Source of the DNA: Bacteroidia bacterium
GTDB lineage: Bacteria > Bacteroidota > Bacteroidia > Flavobacteriales > Flavobacteriaceae
Assembly: GCA_030427985.1 (NCBI GenBank)
Contig: JAUIBH010000032.1
Location: 1 to 35,450 of the forward strand
DNA length: 35,450 bases
Direction: 5' to 3'
Shown here: one piece after another, positions 332 through 11,664 of the stretch
Position numbering within the stretch: the first letter of the stretch is position 1
How the letters are laid out: the number at the start of each line of letters is the position of its first letter
Made by a program: the position numbers and the translations under genes
Notes under the pieces: generated by a model
Database searches by the model: none
The model's input: only the letters and a program-made list of their open reading frames with translations
Told to the model about the DNA's origin: nothing

Positions 332-1423
332 TTATTGAATGCTTACTTTAGCTCCGTTGTACAGTTTTCCTTCGGCCGATACGATGTACTGGTCTCCCTT
401 GGACAAGCCCGACAATACTTCTACTTCTTCTCCGTAATTCTCGCCCAATCGCAACCAACGCAGCAAGGCCACGTTATCTTGGCCTAAAGTATACACTCCC
501 GTTAGCTGACCTTTGTGCACCAAGGCTTTGGATGGAACGGTAACAACTGTTTTGCCATTGCCTTGATTATCCGCCTCCAGCCTAACGGTTGCATACATAC
601 CTGACAGAATCTTGGCTTCCGTTTTGTCCAATGAAAGCTTCATTAAATATTGTCCGCCCGTGTTTTGTGCCGATGCACTCAATTCTGAAACTTCACCGGT
701 AATAGTGGTATCCAAGGTCTTGACCAAGATTTGGGCCTTAGTTCCAACCGTAATTCCCGAAATATTGTTCTCGGAAACCTTGGCCACTACTTCAAAACCG
801 CCTCCTGGGGACTCCACGGACACCAACGGAACACCAGGGTTGGCCATATCGCCCTCATCGATGTAGGTATTGGTAACCACTCCACTGAAAGGTGCCCTAA
901 TGTTAGCATAGGCAAATTGGGAGTTCACTTCGTTCTTCATTTGGTTCGCTGCTTCCAATCTGGCCTTGGCCATTTCGTAACGAGCAGTCATATCATCCAG
1001 TTCCTTTTGGGAGGCACTGCTTTCTTTAAAAAGGTTTTGAAATCTTTCGTAGTCCTTTTTTGCATTGTTGAAGGCTACCGTTGCTTCGGTAATGGAGGCT
1101 TCCACTTGTGCTTTTTTAGCTCTTAAATCCCCATTGTTGATGGAAATAAGCAGGTCCCCCTTGTTTACTTTCTGACCAATTTTAACGGGAAGTGACTCCA
1201 CATGGCCCATCATTCTGGTGCTCAACGTAGCACTGTTCACGGCTTTAATTTGACCACTTCCTGCCAAAATTGTTGAGCTATCGCCAGTATCCACATCAGC
1301 AATGGTTACCGGAACCGCTTCCGTGTTGTCCACCGTCTGTTTTTCGTCACTTCCACAGCCCATCAGGAAGAATCCCAAGGATGCGGTCAGTATGAAACTC
1401 TTATATATCGTAGTATTTTTCAT
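332..1423 (-). CDS. RND efflux periplasmic adaptor lipoprotein (membrane fusion protein)
   Basis: Periplasmic adaptor that links the RND permease to the outer-membrane channel. The protein has 363 residues, normal for the family. It starts with a lipoprotein signal ending LMGC (Cys23), so it should be lipid-anchored. A lipoyl/barrel-sandwich half (SLPVKIGQKVNKGDLLISIN) is followed by a helical hairpin at about residues 95-165, the second lipoyl half (ANIRAPFSGVVT) and a beta-barrel region. The gene begins 7 bases after the TolC stop and ends 16 bases before the RND start. Its promoter is the one upstream of TolC, so it is expected to follow the sulfur-block Crp/Fnr-type control. Confidence 0.93.
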   Translation of the reverse strand: MKNTTIYKSFILTASLGFFLMGCGSDEKQTVDNTEAVPVTIADVDTGDSSTILAGSGQIKAVNSATLSTRMMGHVESLPVKIGQKVNKGDLLISINNGDLRAKKAQVEASITEATVAFNNAKKDYERFQNLFKESSASQKELDDMTARYEMAKARLEAANQMKNEVNSQFAYANIRAPFSGVVTNTYIDEGDMANPGVPLVSVESPGGGFEVVAKVSENNISGITVGTKAQILVKTLDTTITGEVSELSASAQNTGGQYLMKLSLDKTEAKILSGMYATVRLEADNQGNGKTVVTVPSKALVHKGQLTGVYTLGQDNVALLRWLRLGENYGEEVEVLSGLSKGDQYIVSAEGKLYNGAKVSIQ

Positions 1424-1430
1424 CTTGCAA

Positions 1431-2732
1431 TTATTCTTTGGTTAAAAATGTGAGTAAGGATTGTGCTTGATTATATTCAAAAATGGTTTGATAATAGGCC
1501 AATTGCTTTTCTGCATAAGTGGCTTCGGCCATTAATAAATCGGTTGTTTTTTCCAATCCCTCTTTAAATCGGTTTGTACGTATTCTTAATGATTCTTCGG
1601 ATTGCTCCATAGCCAATTTTGAGGTCTGGAGCCTGCTTTCGGCATCTTCGACCATCCGCTTGGTGCGTTGAAGCTCCATAGTACTTTTGGCGATGTATTG
1701 TTCGTATTCCTGTTTCGCTTTTTCATAACTTGTTTTACTCTTTCCTGTTTTGGCGAAGCGTTGGGATCCTTTAAAAACATCCCAACTCAAACTTGCCCCA
1801 ATAATGTATCCTTTGGCATCGGCCTGAAAGATTTGGTCGTCATACATTTCATAGCTAGCAAAGGCATTCAATCGTGGCAAAAAGGTCATCTTGTCTGCCT
1901 TCATGTTTGCTTTATAGGCTTCGGATACCAAGTCCATGGCCTTCACATCCGCTCTGTTTTCCAATGAGCTTTCTACATTTTCGCCAAGATTGTCCGGCAC
2001 CAATTCTTCGGATGGTTCGTAGACCACATCCCCCTGTTCATTCATTAAAAAAGCCACATAGTCCGAAGCGTTTTTTACATTGCTCTTCGCAGTTTTTAAC
2101 TGGTCGGAAACTTCGGTCACCCTCACTTTTACTTCCAATAGATCTGCTTTTTGAAGCAATCCCTGATCAAAGCTGTTTTGCGCCATGTTCAAATTGGCGT
2201 TGGCTGCTTCATGGGCTTTTTGCAACACTGCTACTGCTCTGTGTGCCAATTGCAATTGTCCATAGGCTTTTTGGGCTTCAAAATCCAGATAATCCCTGGT
2301 TCGCATGGCTTGAAGCTCCTTGGCCTCCATGGTGGTCTTGGCCGCTTTGCGCTGATAAAACCCGTCCAAATTGATCAAGGGTTGCTCTACCGAAACTATG
2401 GTGGCATAATTCTCAATCTGATCGGGGTCGTTCAACAAGGCTGGGTTAAAATCCGCTTGGGTCAAAATCTCTTGGTTCAGTTTAGAACCGAAAGCCATCA
2501 ATGGGTTTGTGGTCGCCATCCCAGTATGCGACACAGCGATCTGCGGCAAAAAAATGGAGTTGGAATACCTATAATCGTATTTAGCCATTTGGGCTTCCTG
2601 CTCGGAAACCTTAATGCTAGCGTTGGACTCCTGCACCTTGGCCACGACATCCGCTAGGGAAATCTTGACATGGTCTTGGGCTTGAGCCACCTGCATTAAA
2701 CCAAATGCGATAAAAATGAATATATGCCTCAT
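1431..2732 (-). CDS. TolC family outer-membrane efflux protein
   Basis: Outer-membrane channel of the tripartite pump. The protein has 433 residues with a Sec signal (MRHIFIFIAFGLMQVAQA, cleavage before Gln19). Two long repeats rich in Ala, Gln, Lys and Glu follow, with the heptad-like helices typical of TolC (for example KAHEAANANLNMAQNSFDQG near residue 190 and a matching helix near residue 390). It is the first gene of the operon. Its promoter at 2752-2795 carries the GTAAC-N4-GTTAC box 22 bases from a perfect TAATTTTG element, leaving a leader of roughly 15 bases. The family call is secure; the substrate is unknown. Confidence 0.93.
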   Translation of the reverse strand: MRHIFIFIAFGLMQVAQAQDHVKISLADVVAKVQESNASIKVSEQEAQMAKYDYRYSNSIFLPQIAVSHTGMATTNPLMAFGSKLNQEILTQADFNPALLNDPDQIENYATIVSVEQPLINLDGFYQRKAAKTTMEAKELQAMRTRDYLDFEAQKAYGQLQLAHRAVAVLQKAHEAANANLNMAQNSFDQGLLQKADLLEVKVRVTEVSDQLKTAKSNVKNASDYVAFLMNEQGDVVYEPSEELVPDNLGENVESSLENRADVKAMDLVSEAYKANMKADKMTFLPRLNAFASYEMYDDQIFQADAKGYIIGASLSWDVFKGSQRFAKTGKSKTSYEKAKQEYEQYIAKSTMELQRTKRMVEDAESRLQTSKLAMEQSEESLRIRTNRFKEGLEKTTDLLMAEATYAEKQLAYYQTIFEYNQAQSLLTFLTKE

Positions 2733-2751: not shown

Positions 2752-2795
2752 CAAAATTAGGACGGTACAACCGCTCCCACAGTAACATTAGTTAC
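2752..2795 (-). promoter_or_regulatory. Crp/Fnr-type promoter of the TolC-adaptor-RND operon
   Basis: On the minus strand an inverted repeat GTAAC-TAAT-GTTAC (2795-2782) is followed by 22 bases and then TAATTTTG (2759-2752), a perfect Bacteroidota -7 element. The ATG of the TolC gene begins 20 bases further. Box, spacing and -7 element are the same as at four other promoters in this window. Binding by the Crp/Fnr protein at 11032-11664 is inference. Confidence 0.75.
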
Positions 2796-2876
2796 CATTG
2801 GGAACAGCCTACTAAAACCTGATCATGAGCTTAACATTTCACTCAAAATCAAGTTAAAAAGGGAAGTTGGAATGGA

Positions 2877-3005
2877 TTATTTGTTGCCGCTGTTCATCAA
2901 TGCCAAAACCGCAATCACTAGAACAATGACCACAAGAGCGAACACACCTATCATCCAGATGCCGTTCTCCCATGATACTAACGGAATGTTTACAAGTGCT
3001 TTCAA
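2877..3005 (-). CDS. Small single-span membrane protein, about 42 residues
   Basis: A short reading frame with coding character: a polar start, SWENG, then a hydrophobic span of about 22 residues (IWMIGVFALVVIVLVIAVLALM) broken only by Gly and Trp, and a polar end NSGNK. The first possible codon is TTG at 3005 (ATT lies just before it); the only in-frame ATG gives 25 residues and would remove most of the N-terminus. A possible promoter (TTG, 18 bases, TACATTTT) overlaps the TTG codon, so the true start is uncertain. It lies between the efflux operon and the DUF2892 gene. I do not recognise a named family. It may be a small membrane subunit or a stress peptide. Confidence 0.4.
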   Translation of the reverse strand: MKALVNIPLVSWENGIWMIGVFALVVIVLVIAVLALMNSGNK

Positions 3006-3120
3006 AATGTATTGGTTTTAAGTTTGCGTCAAATTTAATGGGCTCTAATTCATGAAAATATGATATTCCTCATGAAATCCATGACCAAACCATTTACTTT
3101 AAATGCTTAACAACCCTATA

Positions 3121-3150
3121 ATAAAAAAGCCGCTCTTAAAAGAGCGGCTT
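3121..3150 (-). terminator. Intrinsic terminator of the DUF2892 gene
   Basis: A perfect 11-bp stem AAGCCGCTCTT / AAGAGCGGCTT (3127-3137 with 3140-3150) is followed on the minus strand by a T run (AAAAAA at 3123-3128 on the plus strand). It starts 24 bases after the stop of the minus-strand gene at 3174-3380, so it ends that transcript before the small peptide gene. Confidence 0.85.
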
Positions 3151-3173
3151 AAACATCAACCAATCAAAAAAAC

Positions 3174-3380
3174 CTAATCCTTGACCTTGCAAGTACTTAC
3201 TCCAAAAAGGGTGTACAAAGGACAAAAACTCACTAAACTTGTTATTGCGAATATGCCTGCCAATATCAGCATTACTGTGGCCACGGTTCCGGTAATTATT
3301 CCAAAATAATACAGGCCAACCACAGCTAGCGCCACAATCAATCGAACTATGCGGTCCATACCGCCCATGTTTGTTTTCAT
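3174..3380 (-). CDS. DUF2892 (YgaP-like) small membrane protein
   Basis: A 68-residue protein with two membrane segments separated by a short Gly-rich turn. It starts MKTNMGGMDRIVRL and ends CPLYTLFGVSTCK, both typical of the DUF2892 inner-membrane family. The same domain is found fused to rhodanese in YgaP-type proteins, where it forms the membrane part of a sulfurtransferase. Here it stands alone beside rhodanese, persulfide dioxygenase and sulfite dehydrogenase genes, which fits a link to sulfur metabolism (inference). It is transcribed away from the sulfite dehydrogenase gene, and no GTAAC-N4-GTTAC box points towards it. Its own terminator follows at 3121-3150. Exact role unknown. Confidence 0.85.
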   Translation of the reverse strand: MKTNMGGMDRIVRLIVALAVVGLYYFGIITGTVATVMLILAGIFAITSLVSFCPLYTLFGVSTCKVKD

Positions 3381-3510
3381 AATTGACAGTTTATATTTTT
3401 ATTAAAAATTATTAAAGTACTGTAAATGAGATATATAAATCACTTAAACATCCATTCTTTTTACAACTCAATTTCATCGTTAAAACTACAATAAGCTTAT
3501 TAAGCTTTCG

Positions 3511-3554
3511 GTAACTTGGGTTACATAGCATTAGTTATTTTTACGGTACTTTTA
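3511..3554 (+). promoter_or_regulatory. Crp/Fnr-type promoter of the sulfite dehydrogenase operon
   Basis: An inverted repeat GTAAC-TTGG-GTTAC (3511-3524), then 22 bases, then TACTTTTA (3547-3554) as the -7 element. The ATG at 3567 is only 12 bases further, so the leader must be a few bases long. This layout rules out a TTG at 3516 as the start codon, because that TTG lies inside the operator. Confidence 0.75.
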
Positions 3555-3566
3555 ATCTTGAATTTT

Positions 3567-4787
3567 ATGGACAGAAGGGAATTTACTTTTGGGCTCTCCT
3601 TGGCAACCATGGCCAGTATTTTGGGTGTGGATATTGTGTATGGACATAAAATGCCCAAAGATTATCTACCCTTGGGTCTACAGGATCCAGACCCTTTTAA
3701 ACTATTCCACAAAGACAAGGAAATGGTGGTGCTCAACAACAAACCTTGGAATATGGAGGCCCAAGCCCATTTGTTGAACGACAAAATCACTCCCAACAAT
3801 TACATGTTTATTCGGAATAATGGAAGAATTCCTGAGGGAATTGATGCTTCAAACTGGACCTTGACCCTGGATGGCGAATCCATCAATACTAAGAAAACCT
3901 ATTCCATAGCAGATCTTAAAAGCAAATTCCAACACCATACCTATCAATTAACCTTGGAATGTGGCGGAAATGGACGCAGTGAGTTCAATCCACCTGCCAA
4001 AGGCAACCAATGGACCGTAGGTGCGGTTTCCTGTGCCGAATGGACCGGGGTTCGCTTACGGGATGTTCTGGAAGATGCCGGAATCAATTCTGATGCGGTT
4101 TATATCGGATATCATGCAGTGGACACCCACTTAAGTGGCGACCCCAACAAAGAGCCCATCTCTAGAGGGGTTCCCATGGACAAAGCACTTCAGGATGAAA
4201 CTTTATTGGCCTTTGCTATGAACGGCGAGGCTATTCCATTGGCACATGGCTATCCATTACGATTGGTCTGTGGAGGGTGGCCTGCTTCTACTTCGGGAAA
4301 ATGGATTAACCGAATCAGTGTACGCAACAAGGTGCATGATGGCGAAAAAATGGGCGGTACTTCGTATCGTGTACCATGCGAAACAGTTGCCCCGGGCAGC
4401 GAAGTTGCCGATTCCAACATGTGCATTATTGAATCCATGCCGGTTAAATCTTTGATTACCTACCCAAAAAGTGGGGCACTGATTAAGGAAGGTCAAAAAT
4501 TGAACATCAACGGACATGCTTGGGCCGGTGAGCTAGAGGTTTCAAAAATGGAATATTCCATTGATTTTGGCAGTACTTGGCGGAATTGTTCTCTTGAAAA
4601 ACCAGCAAATCGATTGGCATGGCAACATTTTAAGGCTACGGTTTCCTTTCCCAAAAAAGGATATTATGAGGTTTGGGCCAGAGCCACGGACTCCAATGGA
4701 AAAAGTCAACCCATGGTATTACCCGGTTGGAATCCGAAAGGGTATCTCAATAATGCCTGTCACAGAATAGCGGTCAAAATAGTATAA
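3567..4787 (+). CDS. sorA: Molybdopterin sulfite dehydrogenase catalytic subunit (SorA-like)
   Basis: Periplasmic molybdenum enzyme that should oxidise sulfite to sulfate. The chosen ATG gives 406 residues beginning MDRREFTFGLSLATMASI, a twin-arginine signal suited to export of a folded cofactor protein. The sulfite-oxidase fold shows LTLECGGNGRSEF with the molybdenum-ligand Cys132, then WTGVRLRDVLEDAG, the HLSGDPNKEP region and GYPLRLVCGGWPA; the C-terminal half is the dimerisation domain (ITYPKSGALI onward). The next gene encodes a membrane-anchored cytochrome c, the classical SorAB pair. Other members of this superfamily act on other substrates, but the surrounding persulfide genes support sulfite. 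Gene symbol assigned by analogy. Confidence 0.85.
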   Translation: MDRREFTFGLSLATMASILGVDIVYGHKMPKDYLPLGLQDPDPFKLFHKDKEMVVLNNKPWNMEAQAHLLNDKITPNNYMFIRNNGRIPEGIDASNWTLTLDGESINTKKTYSIADLKSKFQHHTYQLTLECGGNGRSEFNPPAKGNQWTVGAVSCAEWTGVRLRDVLEDAGINSDAVYIGYHAVDTHLSGDPNKEPISRGVPMDKALQDETLLAFAMNGEAIPLAHGYPLRLVCGGWPASTSGKWINRISVRNKVHDGEKMGGTSYRVPCETVAPGSEVADSNMCIIESMPVKSLITYPKSGALIKEGQKLNINGHAWAGELEVSKMEYSIDFGSTWRNCSLEKPANRLAWQHFKATVSFPKKGYYEVWARATDSNGKSQPMVLPGWNPKGYLNNACHRIAVKIV

Positions 4788-4788
4788 T

Positions 4789-5241
4789 ATGAAGGACAAA
4801 TTTCAAAAACAGGTAAGCGCCTTTTCCAAAGTCCTTCTTTCCTTTTTAGTATTGATTTTGGTACTCTTTGGAGGATTGTACTATTGGGTAAATCGTAAAC
4901 CAGAACCCAAAATTGAGGAAATTCCCTTGGAAGAATCAATCGAAGATTACGACAAAGTTGAAAATGGAATCCATGTGGCCACCGGATTTATTGATGATGA
5001 AGGAGTGGAAGCCACCATCCAGAATTGTACCAGTTGTCATTCTGCAAAATTGGTTACCCAGAATCGGATGAGCCGGGAAGGATGGAAAGCCACCATAACC
5101 TGGATGCAAGAAACCCAAAATCTATGGGATTTAGGTGCCAATGAAGAATTAATTTTGACCTATTTGGCCAAGAATTATGCTCCCACTGAAAAAGGTCGGC
5201 GGCAGAACTTGGAGGATATTGAGTGGTATGAGCTTAACTAG
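4789..5241 (+). CDS. sorB: Membrane-anchored monoheme cytochrome c (SorB-like)
   Basis: Electron acceptor for the sulfite dehydrogenase. The protein has 150 residues with an uncleaved membrane helix at about residues 12-33 and a periplasmic c-type domain. The heme site is CTSCH (Cys80, Cys83, His84); Met94 or Met106 (GWKATITWMQ) could be the distal ligand. The gene starts one base after the SorA stop, so the two are coupled. SorA enzymes pass electrons from molybdenum to a SorB c-heme; here the heme subunit would hand them to the respiratory chain (family knowledge). The symbol rests on context and heme motif, since SorB proteins vary in sequence. Confidence 0.8.
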   Translation: MKDKFQKQVSAFSKVLLSFLVLILVLFGGLYYWVNRKPEPKIEEIPLEESIEDYDKVENGIHVATGFIDDEGVEATIQNCTSCHSAKLVTQNRMSREGWKATITWMQETQNLWDLGANEELILTYLAKNYAPTEKGRRQNLEDIEWYELN

Positions 5242-5246
5242 CTATT

Positions 5247-6122
5247 ATGGAATATGTTGATGCGTTTGTAAATGGTTTTTTAGGTATGGTACGATGGACT
5301 TGGAAGTCCATTGTGTTTGATGTGCCCTGGTATACCAATTATTTTTGGGGATTGATTGCCATTTCGCTCTTTGTTTGGAGTTTGGAAATTCTCTTTCCGT
5401 GGCGAAAGGAGCAATCCATTTTTAGAAAGGACTTTTGGTTGGATGCCTTTTACATGTTCTTCAACTTCTTCATTTTTGCCATAGTTATAAGCGGCGTTTA
5501 CAAAGTGCTTGAAGTGCTTTTTGCAGATTTGGGCATCACTGCAAAAAGTTTGTCCATAGTAGATGTGACCCTTTGGCCGCAATGGGTACAGCTTTTGGTT
5601 TTCTTCGTTATTCTTGATTTTGTTCAATGGTTCACCCATGTGCTCCTGCACCGGGTACCGGCCTTTTGGGAATTTCATAAAGTGCACCACAGCGTTAAGG
5701 AAATGGGTTTTGCAGCGCATCTTAGATTCCATTGGATGGAGAACATCCTCTACAAACCTTTAAAGACTTTTGGTGTTATGATTCTTGGTGGATTTGAACC
5801 GGAACAAGCCTATATCGTCCATTTTGCAGCCATCGCCATTGGTCATTTTAACCATGCCAACATAAAACTGACCTGGGGACCTTTAAAGTATGTTTTGAAC
5901 AATCCGGTGATGCACCTGTATCATCATGCGTACAATCTTCCGGATGGACATAAGTATGGGATGAATTATGGAATCAGTCTCAGCCTTTGGGATTATATTT
6001 TCCGCACCAACTATATTCCAGAAAGCAGCGGTAAGATTCCATTAGGATTTCCGGGGGATGAAAAACTTCCGAAAGGGTTTTGGGGACAGTTGATTTACGG
6101 TTTCAAAAAGCCGAAAAAATAG
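5247..6122 (+). CDS. Sterol desaturase / fatty acid hydroxylase family membrane protein
   Basis: A 291-residue membrane protein of the non-heme di-iron hydroxylase superfamily. Several hydrophobic helices lie in the first 150 residues. The histidine clusters are HVLLH and HKVHH near residues 130-150, then HLYHHAYNLPDGHKYG near residues 223-240, which together bind two irons in the family. Known members hydroxylate or desaturate sterols, fatty acids or carotenoids. It starts 5 bases after the SorB stop, so it belongs to the sulfite dehydrogenase transcript. No lipid gene is nearby, and its link to sulfite oxidation is unexplained: it might modify a membrane lipid or act in redox balance (speculation). 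It converges on the DUF3365 gene with 9 bases between stops. Confidence 0.88.
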   Translation: MEYVDAFVNGFLGMVRWTWKSIVFDVPWYTNYFWGLIAISLFVWSLEILFPWRKEQSIFRKDFWLDAFYMFFNFFIFAIVISGVYKVLEVLFADLGITAKSLSIVDVTLWPQWVQLLVFFVILDFVQWFTHVLLHRVPAFWEFHKVHHSVKEMGFAAHLRFHWMENILYKPLKTFGVMILGGFEPEQAYIVHFAAIAIGHFNHANIKLTWGPLKYVLNNPVMHLYHHAYNLPDGHKYGMNYGISLSLWDYIFRTNYIPESSGKIPLGFPGDEKLPKGFWGQLIYGFKKPKK

Positions 6123-6131
6123 TTTCAAAAA

Positions 6132-6728
6132 TTATTTGGAAGCATCCGAAGTATTAAAAACAATACTCCAAATACCACGAACCTCATCAATTCCGTAGCC
6201 TGTTGCCTCATCTTCAGGATATAACTCAGACAAATGCTCCATTACTTCAGGCGTAATATTTTGATTGGGGGTTCCGTGGCAATTCAAACATAATGCGTTG
6301 GTAACAATCGGATAGTAAAAATGAACCTGCCCATCCCGTTCTTTTATTATAGGCACTATGGAATCTCCTGCAGCAATTTGCTTTTTAAATGTATTAATGT
6401 GTTCCAGTTCCGTGGCACTGGCCCTCTTCATGGGATTTCTGGTCTTGTCCGATACCCGCTTAATTTGTGCATGATAACGGGTTGCCATACTATCGGTGAG
6501 GGGGTAGGCACGCTCATTGCAAAAAACAACCGCTTCTGCAACACCTTTGTTTTGAATGGTCCCTTTCAAGTTTTTTCCCAGTACTTTTTGGGTCTCTTGA
6601 GCGTATATCATTCCTATTTTCGCGTAATTGGGTTGTGCGACTTCCACAACATCAGATTCTTTCGGGCGCTGTTTGCACGAAGAAAGAAATAGAACAGCAA
6701 CTAAAGGAATGACAATGTATTTCATCAT
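6132..6728 (-). CDS. DUF3365 (Tll0287-like) c-heme lipoprotein
   Basis: A 198-residue periplasmic lipoprotein (signal ending FLSSC, Cys18). The body matches DUF3365, a PAS-like heme fold: VVFCNERAYPLTDSMATRYHAQIKRVSDKTRNPMKRASATELEHI is the typical stretch (quoted here only as far as VVFCNERAYPL and RNPMKRA need be recognised), followed by CLNCHG with a covalent c-heme site (CxxCH) near residue 145. In the family the heme is thought to serve as a redox or gas sensor or an electron carrier. The gene follows the HMA-like gene by 43 bases on the same strand and may share its transcript from the rhodanese promoter. Two ATG codons are adjacent; the upstream one is used. Confidence 0.83.
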   Translation of the reverse strand: MMKYIVIPLVAVLFLSSCKQRPKESDVVEVAQPNYAKIGMIYAQETQKVLGKNLKGTIQNKGVAEAVVFCNERAYPLTDSMATRYHAQIKRVSDKTRNPMKRASATELEHINTFKKQIAAGDSIVPIIKERDGQVHFYYPIVTNALCLNCHGTPNQNITPEVMEHLSELYPEDEATGYGIDEVRGIWSIVFNTSDASK

Positions 6729-6771
6729 TGAAGCATTTTACCGTTGGTATAACTTACAAAATATTTTGTTT

Positions 6772-6981
6772 TTAGCCTCTATTGGAATCCCCTTTATCGA
6801 AGGCTTGTTGAACAAAGGAAGCGACATCGGCGCCTTGGTGTTCAAAGCTAACCGATGCGCTTTCCTTTTCCACAATCACACTTTGTATACCTTCCATTTC
6901 CAATAATTTATTGGAAAGGGATTTGTCTTTTCTGATTACTGGCTTAATAGCTCCATGTTCGGTAACCACCACGAAGGTCAT
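6772..6981 (-). CDS. Small HMA-like (copper-chaperone fold) protein, no CxxC
   Basis: About 69 residues if started at the ATG at 6981 (an earlier ATG at 6993 adds four). The part SNKLLEMEGIQSVIVEKE, then SASVSFEHQG and ADVASFVQQAFDKG, lines up with helix 1 to helix 2 of heavy-metal-associated domains, but the CxxC metal loop is absent. The start overlaps the end of the rhodanese gene by about 38 bases in another frame. From codon Ala at 6951 the frame reads AIKPVIRKDKS, so a single +1 shift after Trp112 of the rhodanese would fuse the two proteins. It could be a coupled gene, or the C-terminal half of a rhodanese-HMA protein split by an indel. Confidence 0.6.
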   Translation of the reverse strand: MTFVVVTEHGAIKPVIRKDKSLSNKLLEMEGIQSVIVEKESASVSFEHQGADVASFVQQAFDKGDSNRG

Positions 6982-7288
6982 ACACCTCCGCAAATCCCAT
7001 TTGCGCTAATCTTCTCGCTGCTTTCTGACTTCTATTTCCTGATTGGCAATAGAGGTAAACGGGTTTGTCTTTTTTCATCCTTGAAAAAGCGGACTCAAAG
7101 GCAGCCCCTTGAAAAAAATCGATATTGCTGGCTCCTTTAATGTGGCCTGAAGCAAATTCGGCACGGGTACGAACATCCACCAACTGTACTTTGCCATTGG
7201 AAATGGCTTTTTTATAGTCCTCCCTGTCCAAAATTTTAATAGTATCTGGAAGGTTTTGTTCTCCGAACAAAAAATTAAGTATCGACAT
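6944..7288 (-). CDS. Single-domain rhodanese sulfurtransferase
   Basis: A cytoplasmic rhodanese of 114 residues. Domain landmarks are VQLVDVRTRAEFASGHIKGA and the active-site loop YCQSGNRS with Cys81 as the sulfur-accepting residue, then VYDLRGGYRTW. It would carry persulfide sulfur between low-molecular-weight thiols and protein partners. The ATG at 7288 is 20 bases after the -7 element of its own promoter (7309-7352). The stop comes two residues after the last conserved Trp, and a second reading frame begins within the final codons, as described under the HMA-like gene. Likely operon: rhodanese, HMA-like, DUF3365. Confidence 0.9.
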   Translation of the reverse strand: MSILNFLFGEQNLPDTIKILDREDYKKAISNGKVQLVDVRTRAEFASGHIKGASNIDFFQGAAFESAFSRMKKDKPVYLYCQSGNRSQKAARRLAQMGFAEVYDLRGGYRTWSY

Positions 7289-7308
7289 AAATCCTATTTT
7301 TATTGGGG

Positions 7309-7352
7309 TAAAAGTAAATAGGTTGTCAGCAGTAGTCAGTAACGCGGGTTAC
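7309..7352 (-). promoter_or_regulatory. Crp/Fnr-type promoter of the rhodanese gene
   Basis: On the minus strand GTAAC-CCGC-GTTAC (7352-7339), 22 bases, then TACTTTTA (7316-7309). It lies in the gap between two rhodanese genes and points to the one at 6944-7288. The -7 octamer is identical to that of the sulfite dehydrogenase promoter. Confidence 0.75.
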
Positions 7353-7379
7353 ACAAGAAAAAATACTTTGAAATAAGAC

Positions 7380-7760
7380 CTAATCCTTGGAACTCCAATC
7401 CGTATAGCCTCCGGTGTAATCGTAAATCTGGGTGAATCCCTTGCTCTTTAGAAGCTCGGCGGCACGATTGCTCCTCCCTCCCATTTTGCAATACAGATAA
7501 ACCGGTTTGTTCTTGTCCAATGTCTCAATTTGGTTGAGGAAACCTTCATCGTTCACATTGAAATTGACCGCATCATCAATATGCCCTTCACTGTATTCCA
7601 TAGGTGTTCGCACATCCACCAATTGCACATCTTTTCCAATTACTTCGGATTGAACTGTGGCCTTATCTATTTTTTTGATGAATGGTTTTTGCTGTGATTG
7701 ACATGAAAAGACCCACAAGACCACAAAACTCATGAGGGAGAATCGAATTAATTTTTGCAT
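7380..7760 (-). CDS. Periplasmic rhodanese lipoprotein
   Basis: A 126-residue rhodanese with a lipoprotein signal ending WVFSC (Cys20), so it acts on the periplasmic side of a membrane. VQLVDVRTPMEYSEGHIDDA is the first conserved block and YLYCKMGGRSNRA holds the catalytic Cys91; YTGGYTDW closes the domain. It starts 7 bases after the persulfide dioxygenase stop and is therefore cotranscribed with it. A periplasmic rhodanese next to a cytoplasmic persulfide dioxygenase suggests sulfane sulfur is handled on both sides of the membrane (inference). It is similar to the neighbouring 114-residue rhodanese, which may reflect duplication followed by gain of a signal peptide. Confidence 0.9.
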   Translation of the reverse strand: MQKLIRFSLMSFVVLWVFSCQSQQKPFIKKIDKATVQSEVIGKDVQLVDVRTPMEYSEGHIDDAVNFNVNDEGFLNQIETLDKNKPVYLYCKMGGRSNRAAELLKSKGFTQIYDYTGGYTDWSSKD

Positions 7761-7767
7761 GATATGA

Positions 7768-9177
7768 TTATTTCAAGGTTGTTGGACAAACGTAATCGGT
7801 CATGGGAATGCCCGCCTCCTTCATGGCACTGAACCCTGAATCCACATCCACCAAATTGTGGATACCCCTACTTTTTAAAATGGAAGCTGCAATCATACTC
7901 CTGTACCCTCCCGCGCAATGGATGTAAAAGGTTTCCTTATCTGGAAATTCAGCTAAATGGTCATTCAGGAAATCCAATGGGGTTAAATTGGCATCCACGG
8001 CATGTTCAGCATTGTATTCGGATTCTTTCCTAACATCGAATACGGGTACTTTTTGTTCCATGAGCTGCTTCAATTCCTTGGCATGGACACTTTTTACGGT
8101 ATCCACTTCCTTGCCCGCTTTTTTCCAAGCTTCAATACCCCCTTTTAAATAACCCAATGTACCGTCAAAACCAACTCTGGAAAGACGGGTTACGGTTTCT
8201 TCTTCCCTCCCTTCTGGGGTCACCAACAAAATGGGTTGTTTTACATCAGCAATCAAGGCGCCTACCCAAGGGGCAAAACTCCCATCCAACCCAATAAAAA
8301 TTGATCTCGGAATATGGCCTTTGGCAAAATCATCTTGATGGCGCACATCCAACACTACGGCTCCGGTTTCGTTGGCAGCCACTTCAAAAGCTTCAGGACT
8401 TAAGGTTTGGGTACCACGCTCCAAAATCTCATCAATATCTTCATAACCCTCCTTGTTCATTTTCACATTTAACGGGAAATATTGGGGAGGAGGCAACAAA
8501 CCATCGGTTACTTCTTTAATAAATTCTTCCCGGGTCATATCTGCCCGTAGGGCATAATTTATCTTCTTTTGATTGCCCAAAGTGTCCACGGTTTCCTTCA
8601 TCATGTTTTTTCCACAAGCGGAACCCGCTCCGTGTGCTGGGTAGACAATTACGTCATCTGCCAACGGTATTATTTTGTTCCGAAGGCTATCAAACAGTGT
8701 TCCTGCCAATTCTTCTTGGGTCATGTGGGCGGCTTTTTGGGCCAAATCCGGTCTTCCTACATCTCCCAAAAACAGGGTGTCCCCACTAAAAATAGCATGG
8801 TCTTTCCCATTCTCGTCCTTTAAAAGATAGGTGGAACTTTCCATGGTATGCCCTGGCGTGTGCAGTACTTTTATGGTGACCTTTCCCAACTTGAACTCTT
8901 GGCCATCTTTTGCAATAATGGCATCAAAAGAGGGTTGGGCGGTGGGACCATATATAATGGGCGCTCCAGTTTCTTTGGACAAGGTTATGTGTCCGCTCAC
9001 AAAATCTGCATGAAAATGGGTTTCAAAAATATATTTGATGGTAGCCCCATTTTTTTCAGCTCTTTTTATGTATGGTTTTACTTCCCGTAAGGGATCAATA
9101 ATGGCCGCTTCGCCATCACTTTCTATACAGTAGGCCCCTTGGGCCAAGCATCCTGTGTATATCTGTTCAATCTTCAT
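7768..9177 (-). CDS. CstB-like persulfide dioxygenase with two rhodanese domains
   Basis: A 469-residue cytoplasmic enzyme. Residues 1-240 form an ETHE1-type metallo-beta-lactamase fold: HFHADF (His54, His56, Asp58), HTPGHT (His110) and SGDTLF (Asp133) supply the mononuclear iron site. A first rhodanese domain (about 262-352) has TPEGRE in place of the active loop and no Cys, so it should be inactive. The second (about 365-455) has HCAGGYR with Cys421. This order, dioxygenase, dead rhodanese, live rhodanese, is that of CstB, which oxidises low-molecular-weight persulfides to thiosulfate (family knowledge). Sulfite made by the dioxygenase could alternatively feed the sulfite dehydrogenase. It has its own promoter at 9195-9238. 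Confidence 0.9.
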   Translation of the reverse strand: MKIEQIYTGCLAQGAYCIESDGEAAIIDPLREVKPYIKRAEKNGATIKYIFETHFHADFVSGHITLSKETGAPIIYGPTAQPSFDAIIAKDGQEFKLGKVTIKVLHTPGHTMESSTYLLKDENGKDHAIFSGDTLFLGDVGRPDLAQKAAHMTQEELAGTLFDSLRNKIIPLADDVIVYPAHGAGSACGKNMMKETVDTLGNQKKINYALRADMTREEFIKEVTDGLLPPPQYFPLNVKMNKEGYEDIDEILERGTQTLSPEAFEVAANETGAVVLDVRHQDDFAKGHIPRSIFIGLDGSFAPWVGALIADVKQPILLVTPEGREEETVTRLSRVGFDGTLGYLKGGIEAWKKAGKEVDTVKSVHAKELKQLMEQKVPVFDVRKESEYNAEHAVDANLTPLDFLNDHLAEFPDKETFYIHCAGGYRSMIAASILKSRGIHNLVDVDSGFSAMKEAGIPMTDYVCPTTLK

Positions 9178-9194
9178 GTGATACTGGTTTTTAT

Positions 9195-9238
9195 CAAAAA
9201 TAGCATTGTGTACCCTAAACTTCAGTGACTAAAGTTAC
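9195..9238 (-). promoter_or_regulatory. Crp/Fnr-type promoter of the persulfide dioxygenase operon
   Basis: On the minus strand GTAAC-TTTA-GTCAC (9238-9225; one base off the repeat), 22 bases, then a perfect TATTTTTG (9202-9195). The box overlaps the last codons of the SulP gene. The ATG of the dioxygenase is 17 bases after the -7 element. Confidence 0.72.
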
Positions 9239-10968
9239 AAACTCTTGGTTTTGGACTGAAGTGATATCCGCTCCTGTATTTCACTTCTACCTTTTTGATT
9301 GGTGCAATAGTCCACAGCCTCAAATGTCTGTACAAAAAGGTTTTGCCGTCCGATGCAATCAATCAGCCCGCTGTTGTGGAAAATATCCCTTGTTGGGCCA
9401 CTTGCACCTGTGATGATGAATTGTATTCCTTTTGTTTTTAAGTCGTTCACAACACGCTCCAACATTACGGCCGCACTACTATCAATATAGTTGATGGCTT
9501 CGGCATTGAGAATAACATGTTTTAAAGCAGGTCCTTTTTTCTGAATTTGTTTATACAGTTCTTTTTTGAAGTAATCCTTGTTCCCGAAATACAACTGGGC
9601 ATCAAACCGGATGATAAGCTTGTCGTCATCAACCGTAACTTCTTCAGGAAACCTACTTACATTTTTGAAGTAGTCTGTTCCTTTGATTCTACCCAAAACC
9701 GCAATATGGGGATTGGAAATACGATATACCAATAACATGAGAGATAGCAACACGCCCAGTAGAATCCCCTCTATCAGACCAATGAATAAGGTCAACAAAA
9801 ATGTCGCCATCAACAAAAAGAATTCATCTTTTCGGTTTTTCCATAGCATTAGGGGATATTTAAGGTCAATCAACCCAAAAACGGACACAATGATGATAGC
9901 TCCGAGGGCTGCTGTAGGCAAATCATGAAACAGGGGGGTTAGAAACAACAAAATCCCTGCGATAAGCAAGGCACTAAAAATCAAGGCCATTCCGGTTCTT
10001 GCCCCAGACTGGTCATTGACGGCGGTTCTTGAAAAGCTTCCCGATACCGAAAAAGATTGAAAAAAAGATGCGGCTATATTGGACATCCCCAAGGCTCGTA
10101 GCTCTTGATTGGCATCCAATTCATACTCTGGGTGTTTTTCCTCCACAGTTTTTGCAATGGAAATGGATTCCATAAACCCAAAAAGGGCCACCGTAATGGC
10201 AATGGGAAGCAACTGCCCCAGTCTATCCATTTGGATTTCTGGAACCTGAAATGAGGGAAGTCCACTGGGAATCTTCCCTAAAACATGTATCCCCTTCGAC
10301 TCCAAGCCAAAAAAGAAAACCGCTAAAATACCTAGGATAATGACCAATAAAGGGGTTGGTATTTTTCTGCTGATTTTGTTCATGCCGAGAATAAAAACTA
10401 TGGCTACCACGCCCAAAATCAATGCATAAAAATTGATCTGCCCCAGACTTTCAAAAATATTACCAACAAGCACATGGATTCTACTGGACTGGGCAACATC
10501 GGTTCCCAAAATGTGTTTCAATTGACCGAGACCTATCAAAATTGCTGCGGCAGAGGTAAATCCACTAATGACGGGTTTGGACAAAAAATTGACAAAGAAT
10601 CCCATCTTCAACAGACCCAATACTAATTGGATGCTCCCTATCAACAGTGTTAAAAAAAGTACAGTTGCAATATAGGCCTCAACTCCTGTGAGTTGCAATG
10701 CTCCCACGCCTGCCGCCACCAGCAAAGAATCCATGGCCACCGGTCCTACCGCCAATTGTCTTGAGGTTCCTGTAAGTGCATAAACTACTTGGGGAACCAG
10801 AGCGGCATACAGACCATAAATGGGAGGCATCCCCGCAATCATGGCATAAGCCATCCCTTGGGGTACCAACATAATTCCCACGGTTACCCCTGCAATTAAA
10901 TCTCCATACAAATGAGAACGATTGTAGGTGGCCATCCAAGATAAGATAGGAAAAAACCGTTTGAGCAT
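9235..10968 (-). CDS. SulP family anion transporter with STAS domain
   Basis: A membrane transporter of 577 residues from the chosen ATG. Residues about 15-90 show the SulP signature (DLIAGVTVGIMLVPQGMAYA, PPIYGLYAALVP, TGTSRQLAVGPVA), followed by some ten further hydrophobic segments and a cytoplasmic STAS domain near residues 440-560 with NYIDSSAAVMLERV and FIITGASGPTRD. SulP proteins move sulfate, bicarbonate or other anions. Next to sulfite-oxidising genes, export or exchange of sulfate is plausible, but bicarbonate cannot be excluded. A TTG at 10986 would add six residues, but it lies inside the -7 promoter element, so the ATG at 10968 is preferred. Confidence 0.92.
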   Translation of the reverse strand: MLKRFFPILSWMATYNRSHLYGDLIAGVTVGIMLVPQGMAYAMIAGMPPIYGLYAALVPQVVYALTGTSRQLAVGPVAMDSLLVAAGVGALQLTGVEAYIATVLFLTLLIGSIQLVLGLLKMGFFVNFLSKPVISGFTSAAAILIGLGQLKHILGTDVAQSSRIHVLVGNIFESLGQINFYALILGVVAIVFILGMNKISRKIPTPLLVIILGILAVFFFGLESKGIHVLGKIPSGLPSFQVPEIQMDRLGQLLPIAITVALFGFMESISIAKTVEEKHPEYELDANQELRALGMSNIAASFFQSFSVSGSFSRTAVNDQSGARTGMALIFSALLIAGILLFLTPLFHDLPTAALGAIIIVSVFGLIDLKYPLMLWKNRKDEFFLLMATFLLTLFIGLIEGILLGVLLSLMLLVYRISNPHIAVLGRIKGTDYFKNVSRFPEEVTVDDDKLIIRFDAQLYFGNKDYFKKELYKQIQKKGPALKHVILNAEAINYIDSSAAVMLERVVNDLKTKGIQFIITGASGPTRDIFHNSGLIDCIGRQNLFVQTFEAVDYCTNQKGRSEIQERISLQSKTKSL

Positions 10969-10983
10969 GTGATGAACTTTAGG

Positions 10984-11027
10984 CAAAAATACAGTGCAAA
11001 AAAATGATTTTGGGTAACCTAGGGCAC
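10984..11027 (-). promoter_or_regulatory. Crp/Fnr-type promoter of the SulP gene
   Basis: On the minus strand GTGCC-CTAG-GTTAC (11027-11014; the upstream half is degenerate), 22 bases, then a perfect TATTTTTG (10991-10984). The half-site nearer the promoter is intact. The element places the transcript start just upstream of the ATG at 10968. Confidence 0.65.
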
Positions 11028-11031
11028 ATAC

Positions 11032-11664
11032 CTACAAATCCAAAATTTGGATATAGCTTCTGTGGAGTGCCACTTTTTTCATTTTTTCCAACTTCTTCAA
11101 CAATCTGGAAATGACAACCCGTGAGGTATGCAGATCGTATGCTATTTCTTGATGTGTATTGCGAATCTTGTTATCGTTGTTGACCGCTACTTTCTTTTTA
11201 AGGTACTCTACCAGTCGTTGGTCTAAATTTTTGAATGCGATACTGTCCACGGTCTGCAAAAGTTCGTTCAAACGATTGTGATAGCTTTCAAAAACATAGT
11301 TGCGCCAGCCCTTGTACTTTCCCATCCATTCTTCCATTTTTTGAACAGGCACCATGATAATCACAGTATCGGTCTCGGCAATGGCCCTGATCTCACTCTG
11401 GGTTTGCCCCATACAGCAGGCCATGGTCACCGAACAGGTTTCGCCCTGTTCCAAATAGTACAACAAAAGTTCATCACCATCTTCATCTTCGCGCAGCACT
11501 TTAATAGCTCCCGAAATTAGCAAGGGTATACTCCTAATGTAATTTCCAATATCCATGATAACCTCTCCCGCAGCCACTTCCACCAATTTGCCCACTTCAT
11601 TGATCTCATCAATAAGAGGTTGCTCAAAATAGGTGCTGAATGTTTCTAAAAGTTCTTCTTTCAT
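11032..11664 (-). CDS. Crp/Fnr family transcriptional regulator
   Basis: A 210-residue regulator: an N-terminal cyclic-nucleotide-binding-like barrel (residues 20-120, with GEVIMDIGNYIRSIPLLISG and YYLEQGE), a long dimer helix, and a C-terminal winged helix (NTHQEIAYDLHTSRVVISRL as recognition region). The cAMP-binding signature is not evident. Instead there are three cysteines after the barrel turn, GETCSVTMACCMG (Cys77, Cys83, Cys84), placed where a thiol or persulfide could be sensed. The start at 11664 is chosen because an earlier start at 11715 would lie within a terminator. The gene sits upstream of SulP on the same strand and is the best candidate to bind the five GTAAC-N4-GTTAC boxes. 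Confidence 0.9.
   Translation of the reverse strand: MKEELLETFSTYFEQPLIDEINEVGKLVEVAAGEVIMDIGNYIRSIPLLISGAIKVLREDEDGDELLLYYLEQGETCSVTMACCMGQTQSEIRAIAETDTVIIMVPVQKMEEWMGKYKGWRNYVFESYHNRLNELLQTVDSIAFKNLDQRLVEYLKKKVAVNNDNKIRNTHQEIAYDLHTSRVVISRLLKKLEKMKKVALHRSYIQILDL

Follow-up and report, generated by a model that had tools for sequence, protein, structure and literature searches.

In the 35,450-base contig JAUIBH010000032.1 of a Flavobacteriaceae bacterium (assembly GCA_030427985.1), which was analysed along its entire length and is hereafter referred to as the window, six promoters share a GTAAC-N4-GTTAC box followed, after exactly 22 bases, by a Bacteroidota −7 octamer. Here we report that these promoters highly likely constitute one regulon for the oxidation and disposal of sulfide, sulfane sulfur and sulfite, governed by a class II activator of the Crp/Fnr family encoded at 11032–11664 (minus strand).

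The original prediction had described five such promoters, and all five are real, each with the expected octamer on the correct strand exactly 22 bases from the box (5/5). Three of the boxes are exact. These are located at 2782–2795 (minus strand; octamer TAATTTTG at 2752–2759), in the promoter of a TolC gene (1431–2732) and an AcrA-like gene (332–1423); at 3511–3524 (plus-strand reading; TACTTTTA at 3547–3554), before a SorA-like gene (3567–4787); and at 7339–7352 (minus strand; TACTTTTA at 7309–7316), before a rhodanese gene (6944–7288). The remaining two, which had been listed alongside them, are imperfect: the box at 9225–9238 (minus strand; TATTTTTG at 9195–9202), before a persulfide dioxygenase-like gene (7768–9177) and a further rhodanese gene (7380–7760), has one mismatch, and that at 11014–11027 (minus strand; TATTTTTG at 10984–10991), before a SulP gene starting at 10968, has two, both in its distal half. 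The window holds six promoters rather than five because the box at 3511–3524 can be read in both directions: on the minus strand, it is followed after 22 bases by TAGTTTTA at 3481–3488 and faces a YgaP-like transmembrane protein gene (3174–3380), a promoter that had been missed. The same two-way box before SorA-like and YgaP-like genes is found in two other genomes (G201 and G271). The octamer lies 12 to 20 bases from the start codon for the five previously named genes and 100 bases from that of the YgaP-like gene.

The argument that equal spacings are unlikely to arise by chance is borne out. In 2000 first-order resamplings of the window, scored for a box with up to two mismatches, N22 and TAnnTTTR, the mean was 0.0195 sites and the maximum 2, compared with the 6 observed, and in the window itself all other spacings from 10 to 39 bases gave 2 matches altogether.

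Rarity and conservation of the pattern

The 3.63 Mb genome contains four exact boxes, of which three are in the window, and 24 occurrences of the reversed pattern; the fourth box (C59:3275) falls within an atpC-like reading frame and was attributed to chance. A genome-wide search for the box, N22 and TAnnTTTG with up to three mismatches returned 38 places, compared with 110 for the reversed pattern, and most such matches are therefore noise. At up to two mismatches there are nine places: the six in the window, one before a DUF983 gene whose start codon lies 17 bases past the −7 element, and two (on C50 and C175) that were rejected as lying within RNA methyltransferase-like and phosphate transporter-like frames (names assigned by eye). 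A three-mismatch site also precedes an SQR-like flavoprotein gene, with the start codon 21 bases past the −7 element, and exact boxes in relatives likewise precede DUF983 and SQR-like genes. We left uncounted the loosely fitting sites at C99 and before a Dps-like gene (C123); at G000:C123:1239 (L033), a GTGAC-N4-GTCAC box with an imperfect −7 element lies before the Dps-like gene. The pattern is rare and located before sulfur genes, not as frequent at random positions. These results support the predicted sulfur regulon, which nevertheless extends past the block to which it had been assigned, reaching the SQR-like and DUF983 genes.

We then compared loci around regulator orthologs, comprising at least 76 named loci found by regulator similarity among the matches listed (1.45 Mb), mostly from Muricauda, Allomuricauda and Flagellimonas. 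The source genome is close to these genera, its regulator sharing 97% identity with the Muricauda sp. CP2A protein. We counted 191 exact boxes in these loci, compared with 29 for the reversed control and between 0 and 4 for each of three other palindromes. After boxes with at most one mismatch, the octamer was found 239 times at a spacing of 22; the secondary peaks, at 11 (33 octamers) and at 28 (20 octamers), were rejected as separate spacings, as they represent extra TAnnTTTR matches in promoters that also have the spacing of 22 (33/33 and 19/20, respectively). Allowing two mismatches, we found 286 sites in 72 of the 76 loci. At this threshold no sites were found in L106–L109, whose regulators are 48–58% identical, whereas other equally distant loci have some. 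The regulator match is followed within 150 bp by the start of a site in 64 of the 76 loci.

The genes downstream of the 286 sites encode persulfide dioxygenase-like (62), SulP (43), YgaP-like (40), fatty-acid-hydroxylase-like (26), TolC (25), SorA-like (19), rhodanese (14) and Tll0287-like (3) proteins and the regulator itself (2), with 52 others. Among these 52, scanning identified cytochrome bd, TauE, SQR-like, peroxiredoxin and heavy-metal-associated proteins, a few sites having no called frame, and further DUF983- and Sulf_transp-like members were named by eye from their resemblance to scanned proteins. One box mismatch is present in 51 of the 62 sites before persulfide dioxygenase-like genes, and all 43 SulP sites start with GT and retain the proximal GTTAC. 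The spacer of the 272 unique sites is almost random in sequence, apart from a weak T-G-[TA]-[AG] adjoining the box and an A shortly before the spacer ends. The stretch around −33 contains TTG in 8 of these sites and keeps TG in 106, in agreement with the proposal that a −33 TTG is dispensable. The expected conservation in related genomes is likewise upheld, as the sites are kept in the related loci.

The pattern extends well beyond these genera. A draw of 296 genomes from the order yielded 98 places with the exact pattern, spread over 44 genomes and 31 of 91 genera, and 2 with the reversed pattern. With the spacer free from 16 to 28 bases there were 134 places, 97 at 22 and 36 across the other 12 spacings (about 3 each), the remaining one being a short reading of a site counted at 22; the reversed pattern gave about 69 over the 13 spacings, or about 5 each (counted by eye). 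We grouped the 94 sites outside the source genome by BLAST and, for every group that lacked a homolog in the window, scanned one representative. Families of the window cluster follow 66 of the 94 sites (persulfide dioxygenase/rhodanese 33, TolC 20, Tll0287-like 5, SulP 3, SorA-like 2, YgaP-like 2 and fatty-acid-hydroxylase-like 1). Another 22 precede genes for TauE (4), SQR-like (4), cytochrome bd (2), DUF2202 (2) and thioredoxin (2) proteins and eight other families once each, namely Sulf_transp, redoxin, OsmC, DUF983, YeiH-like, CoA-disulfide-reductase-like flavoprotein, DUF6132 and methyltransferase; four sites have an ambiguous gene and two have no reading frame.

TolC/RND efflux genes (332–2732 in the window) are the second most common target of the box, accounting for 20 of the 94 outside sites. 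Boxes precede DUF983 genes in several genera (G000:C147:16941 (L012), L078, L086, L091, L101 and L292), and the box ties this family, which has no assigned function, to sulfur stress.

A phylum-wide draw of 296 genomes contained the pattern in 29 genomes and the control in none, with hits in 18 of 36 genomes of the family and order, 10 of 37 from the rest of the class and 1 of 223 outside the class. In each of the last 11 of these genomes, one place was examined; six of these places precede genes resembling those of the 94 sites, and three more precede TauE, thioredoxin and Prismane genes. The densest cluster found, eight exact sites in 26 kb, lies in a genome of another order (G533:C1:2653669–2679504).

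The candidate Crp/Fnr regulator and the box half-site

The regulator (11032–11664, minus strand) consists of 210 residues and belongs to the Crp/Fnr superfamily, with cNMP_binding (PF00027, 40.2 bits; cut-off 27.5) and HTH_Crp_2 (PF13545, 30.1 bits; cut-off 27) domains. Its recognition helix reads SRVVISR, and its only cysteines are C77, C83 and C84. Four Crp-type HTH proteins of the genome exceed the Pfam cut-off; the best domains of the other three score 12.6–22.7 bits against the regulator profile, and an SRxxxSR helix was not found in them.

The site co-occurs with this protein. Among genomes of the family, 29 of 30 with a regulator match of at least 280 bits have a site, compared with 1 of 20 below that score (p = 1.3e-11), the cut having been placed afterwards in the observed gap between 232 and 282 bits. 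For genus g2 alone, the site is present in 6 of 6 genomes with a close ortholog and in 1 of 19 without (p = 4e-5). The co-occurrence and the usual adjacency of gene and site agree with the original choice of this gene as the candidate activator, the activation itself being suggested by the geometry. We consider the 11032–11664 protein the best candidate for the box-binding protein on the basis of these comparisons.

Part of the apparent absence of sites reflects the strictness of the pattern, which misses four genomes (G039, G011, G036 and G084) because there the exact box beside the regulator is placed 22 bases from an octamer starting with TT instead of TA. Three of them, G011, G036 (279 bits, just under the cut) and G084 (285 bits), are misses outside the family, with TTnnTTTG as the octamer. 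A weaker −7 element is apparently acceptable at some of these promoters, as TT-start octamers at 22 bases are present in L128, L129, L140, L156 and L157.

Positions 180 and 181 of CRP are linked to bases of the half-site in PMC1274295. Position 183 of the regulator aligns with CRP position 181 and is Val in 31 of 32 aligned regulators and Glu in 1. We examined the residues of 121 of the 152 best regulator matches. Val-183 proteins were accompanied by a site in 37 cases and not in 33, and Glu-183 proteins in 7 and 44, respectively; Val together with the Cys-Cys pair gave 30 with and 12 without, four of the 12 being the TT-octamer genomes described above.

Given the alignment with CRP 181 and the published link to half-site bases, we searched the 296 order genomes for GTGAC-N4-GTCAC-N22-TAnnTTTR and found it at 15 places in 14 genomes, with 1 for the reversed control. 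Nine of the 15 places adjoin a regulator paralog, and all nine paralogs carry Glu-183. The genes after these nine encode a YgaP-like protein in five cases and, in three, proteins of about 280 residues that resemble one another, with one ambiguous. The other six places, which have no such regulator within 1.5 kb, precede rhodanese (2), Sulf_transp-like (1), thioredoxin (1), flavoprotein (1) and ambiguous (1) genes. Within 200 bp downstream of Val regulators we counted 35 exact GTAAC and 0 GTGAC boxes, and downstream of Glu regulators 9 GTGAC and 2 GTAAC boxes, after removal of near-duplicates (p = 5e-8). The residue and the box thus differ in parallel between the paralogs. A strict Val/Glu code is only partly true, given two exceptions (L116 and L153).

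Three genomes (G072, G241 and G256) hold both kinds of box and regulator, and the GTGAC paralogs may there constitute an additional regulon running parallel to the first. Their Glu paralogs with GTGAC boxes before YgaP-like genes are located at G072:C2:437181–437863 (L376), G241:C16:3445–4108 (L374) and G256:C12:717858–718521 (L386). In L382, L383 and L384, the GTGAC boxes beside Glu-183 regulators precede the protein of about 280 residues, of which the one scanned belongs to DUF5777, a beta-barrel family.

Proposed mechanism and alternative explanations

In Flavobacterium psychrophilum, the TAnnTTTG element occupies −12 to −5 (PMC9723704); with this numbering, the 22-base spacer and half the length of the box (14 bases) place the box centre at exactly −41.5. 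The original prediction had put it at about −40, in the class II position; the class assignment stands, and the centre is shifted to −41.5. The class II site of Escherichia coli CRP, a homologous protein, is also centred at −41.5, although the CRP site is TGTGA-N6-TCACA and is paired with Glu-181. The NtcA class II promoters described in PMC3898017 have GTAN8TAC followed by a −10 TAN3T, with a gap of 22 bases at ilvG and a centre of about −41.5; they share with the present sites the GTA..TAC half-sites, the gap and the centre. A class II activator is the best reading of the sites, because of the −41.5 centre, the N22 phase in 98 sites and the identical NtcA geometry. A dimer of the 11032–11664 protein would bind the box centred at −41.5 and contact RNA polymerase at the TAnnTTTG −7 element, thereby replacing the missing −33 TTG.

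The activator may be switched on by reactive sulfur species, perhaps through C77 and C84. Such a sensor is plausible because all 32 aligned regulators have C77 and C84, and nearly all have C83. The cysteine loop aligns with the phosphate-binding cassette of CRP; the structure model of the regulator has a pLDDT (predicted local distance difference test) of 83.8, with low values near residues 81–90. Cyclic AMP is contacted in E. coli CRP by E72, R82 and S83. In the 32 regulators, the place of R82 is taken by Lys in 24 and by Gln in the window protein, that of S83 by Ser in all 32, and that of E72 falls in an alignment gap, so that cyclic AMP as a ligand is neither supported nor excluded by the sequences. 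FNR senses through a [4Fe-4S] cluster with four cluster cysteines, whereas the window protein has three cysteines in all.

Several observations weigh against the proposed regulon or parts of it. Outside the family, an exact site is present in only 2 of 10 genomes with a regulator match of at least 280 bits, and in G119 a rhodanese gene is preceded by a site although the genome carries only a 223-bit Glu-183 paralog. Regulators with Val-183 and Gly-Gly in place of Cys-Cys have a site in 4 cases and lack one in 18 (n = 22). C77 is present in all 121 regulators, including those without sites, and was rejected as a marker of the GTAAC regulon, and C83-C84 is absent from some site-bearing genomes; this wide occurrence of C77 in the family, together with the possible anion site kept by Ser-90 and mostly Lys-89, tempers the case for reactive-sulfur sensing. 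The Glu-183 regulators L116 and L153 adjoin exact GTAAC boxes, and the p-values for the residue–box pairing are inflated because the GTGAC loci were picked by their box. The absence of sites in 8 of the 10 high-scoring genomes outside the family, and the G119 site without a close ortholog, would fit another DNA-binding protein reading the boxes, with the Crp/Fnr gene as a linked passenger. We consider this very improbable, since within the family the two co-occur even where site and regulator lie on separate contigs (for example, in G087 and G196), and residue 183 and base 3 of the box differ in a matched manner. Chance, or shared ancestry that kept the boxes merely because the cluster was inherited as a block, is scarcely credible: although the 76 loci come mostly from Muricauda, Allomuricauda and Flagellimonas, the sites are found at scattered positions in 31 of 91 genera, with different genes following them, with 98 at N22 and about 3 at each other spacing, and their spacer bases are nearly random.

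The known systems suggest two further explanations. The published consensus of the HcpR2 box (GTAACnnnnGTTAC; PMC1274295) equals the window box, and one match in another order precedes a Prismane (hcp) gene (L335), which would suit an HcpR2-type nitrosative-stress regulon with the sulfur genes as side targets of an NO sensor. This is unlikely, as HcpR2 has Pro at the place of CRP-181, where the window protein has Val, and controls hcp, whereas no Prismane gene (PF03063) was found in the genome, which is 88.9% complete, or among the named genes at the 94 order sites. Alternatively, the protein could repress, blocking polymerase from −41.5 until sulfane sulfur frees the DNA, in the manner of CstR and SqrR, which are described as repressors in PMC9774590 and PMC7315123; the TG kept around −33 in 106 of the 272 unique sites would agree with this. 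A fixed N22 phase and so rare a −33 TTG (8/272) are required for class II activation but not for repression, and the NtcA gap of 22 bases belongs to an activated promoter (PMC3898017), making repression slightly less probable again than the HcpR2-type regulon. The class II activator of a sulfur regulon remains the preferred reading.

This regulator differs from NtcA. It shares with NtcA an Arg-Val at the opening of the recognition helix, and NtcA is its second-best solved structure by sequence (60 bits); however, it scores 42.2 bits against the NCBIfam NtcA model (cut-off 245), and its targets are sulfur rather than nitrogen genes, with a Bacteroidota −7 element in place of TAN3T. The known sulfur regulators CstR, SqrR/BigR and FisR control SQR, persulfide dioxygenase and rhodanese genes, target-gene kinds similar to those found here, and belong to other protein families, CstR being CsoR-like, SqrR/BigR ArsR-type and FisR a sigma-54 activator. 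No description of a Crp/Fnr regulon for sulfide oxidation in Bacteroidota was found in the open-access literature, subscription journals lying mostly outside the search, and a literal search for three spellings of the box returned only PMC1274295. The box (HcpR2) and the geometry (NtcA) are already known; the sulfur targets appear to be new and the regulator undescribed. Tentatively, and with rather less confidence than in the regulon itself, we suggest a fuller scheme, in which Bacteroidota would rely on the protein as an undescribed class II master switch for sulfide, persulfide and sulfite oxidation, whose cysteines in the former cyclic-nucleotide pocket loop, C77 with C83/C84, would sense reactive sulfur, and in which Val/Glu-183 would split the family into two coexisting regulons, GTAAC and GTGAC.

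The cluster and its wider meaning

The gene names for SorA, SorB, SQR, persulfide dioxygenase and YeiH rest on scores below the curated cut-offs. The SorA-like sulfite dehydrogenase catalytic subunit (3567–4787, plus strand) reaches 236 bits against a cut-off of 600 (NCBIfam SorA) and is directly followed by a SorB-like c-type cytochrome gene (4789–5241, plus strand), also under its cut-off, and by a gene for an FA_hydroxylase family membrane protein (5247–6122, plus strand), whose homologs are box-preceded in some relatives. The persulfide dioxygenase-like protein (7768–9177, minus strand) combines a Lactamase_B domain with two rhodanese domains and scores 60 bits against the NCBIfam Blh-type model (cut-off 625); the rhodanese downstream of it (7380–7760, minus strand) has a lipoprotein-like start, and another rhodanese is encoded at 6944–7288 (minus strand). 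The SulP permease (9235–10968, minus strand) carries a STAS domain, and the YgaP-like protein of the sixth promoter (3174–3380, minus strand) matches PF11127. The box-preceded efflux genes at 332–2732 (minus strand) encode the TolC-like outer membrane protein and an RND adaptor, the contig ending at base 1. A small open frame at 6775–6978 (minus strand) overlaps the end of the rhodanese gene, has no Pfam match and may be an extra operon member.

Genes resembling those for persulfide dioxygenase, SQR, rhodanese and sulfite dehydrogenase are present in many Flavobacteriales genomes, and the box provides a sequence rule that lists their regulon. It also pulls in unexpected members, namely the TolC/RND efflux genes, DUF983, DUF2202 and the fatty-acid-hydroxylase-like gene. 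Furthermore, the paralogs that coexist in one cell, differing at a key residue and in their boxes at one base per half-site, provide a natural experiment on the Crp/Fnr recognition code. Judging from the sequence comparisons, the neighbouring Crp/Fnr protein is very probably the switch that turns the sulfide- and sulfur-oxidising genes on together in many Bacteroidota.

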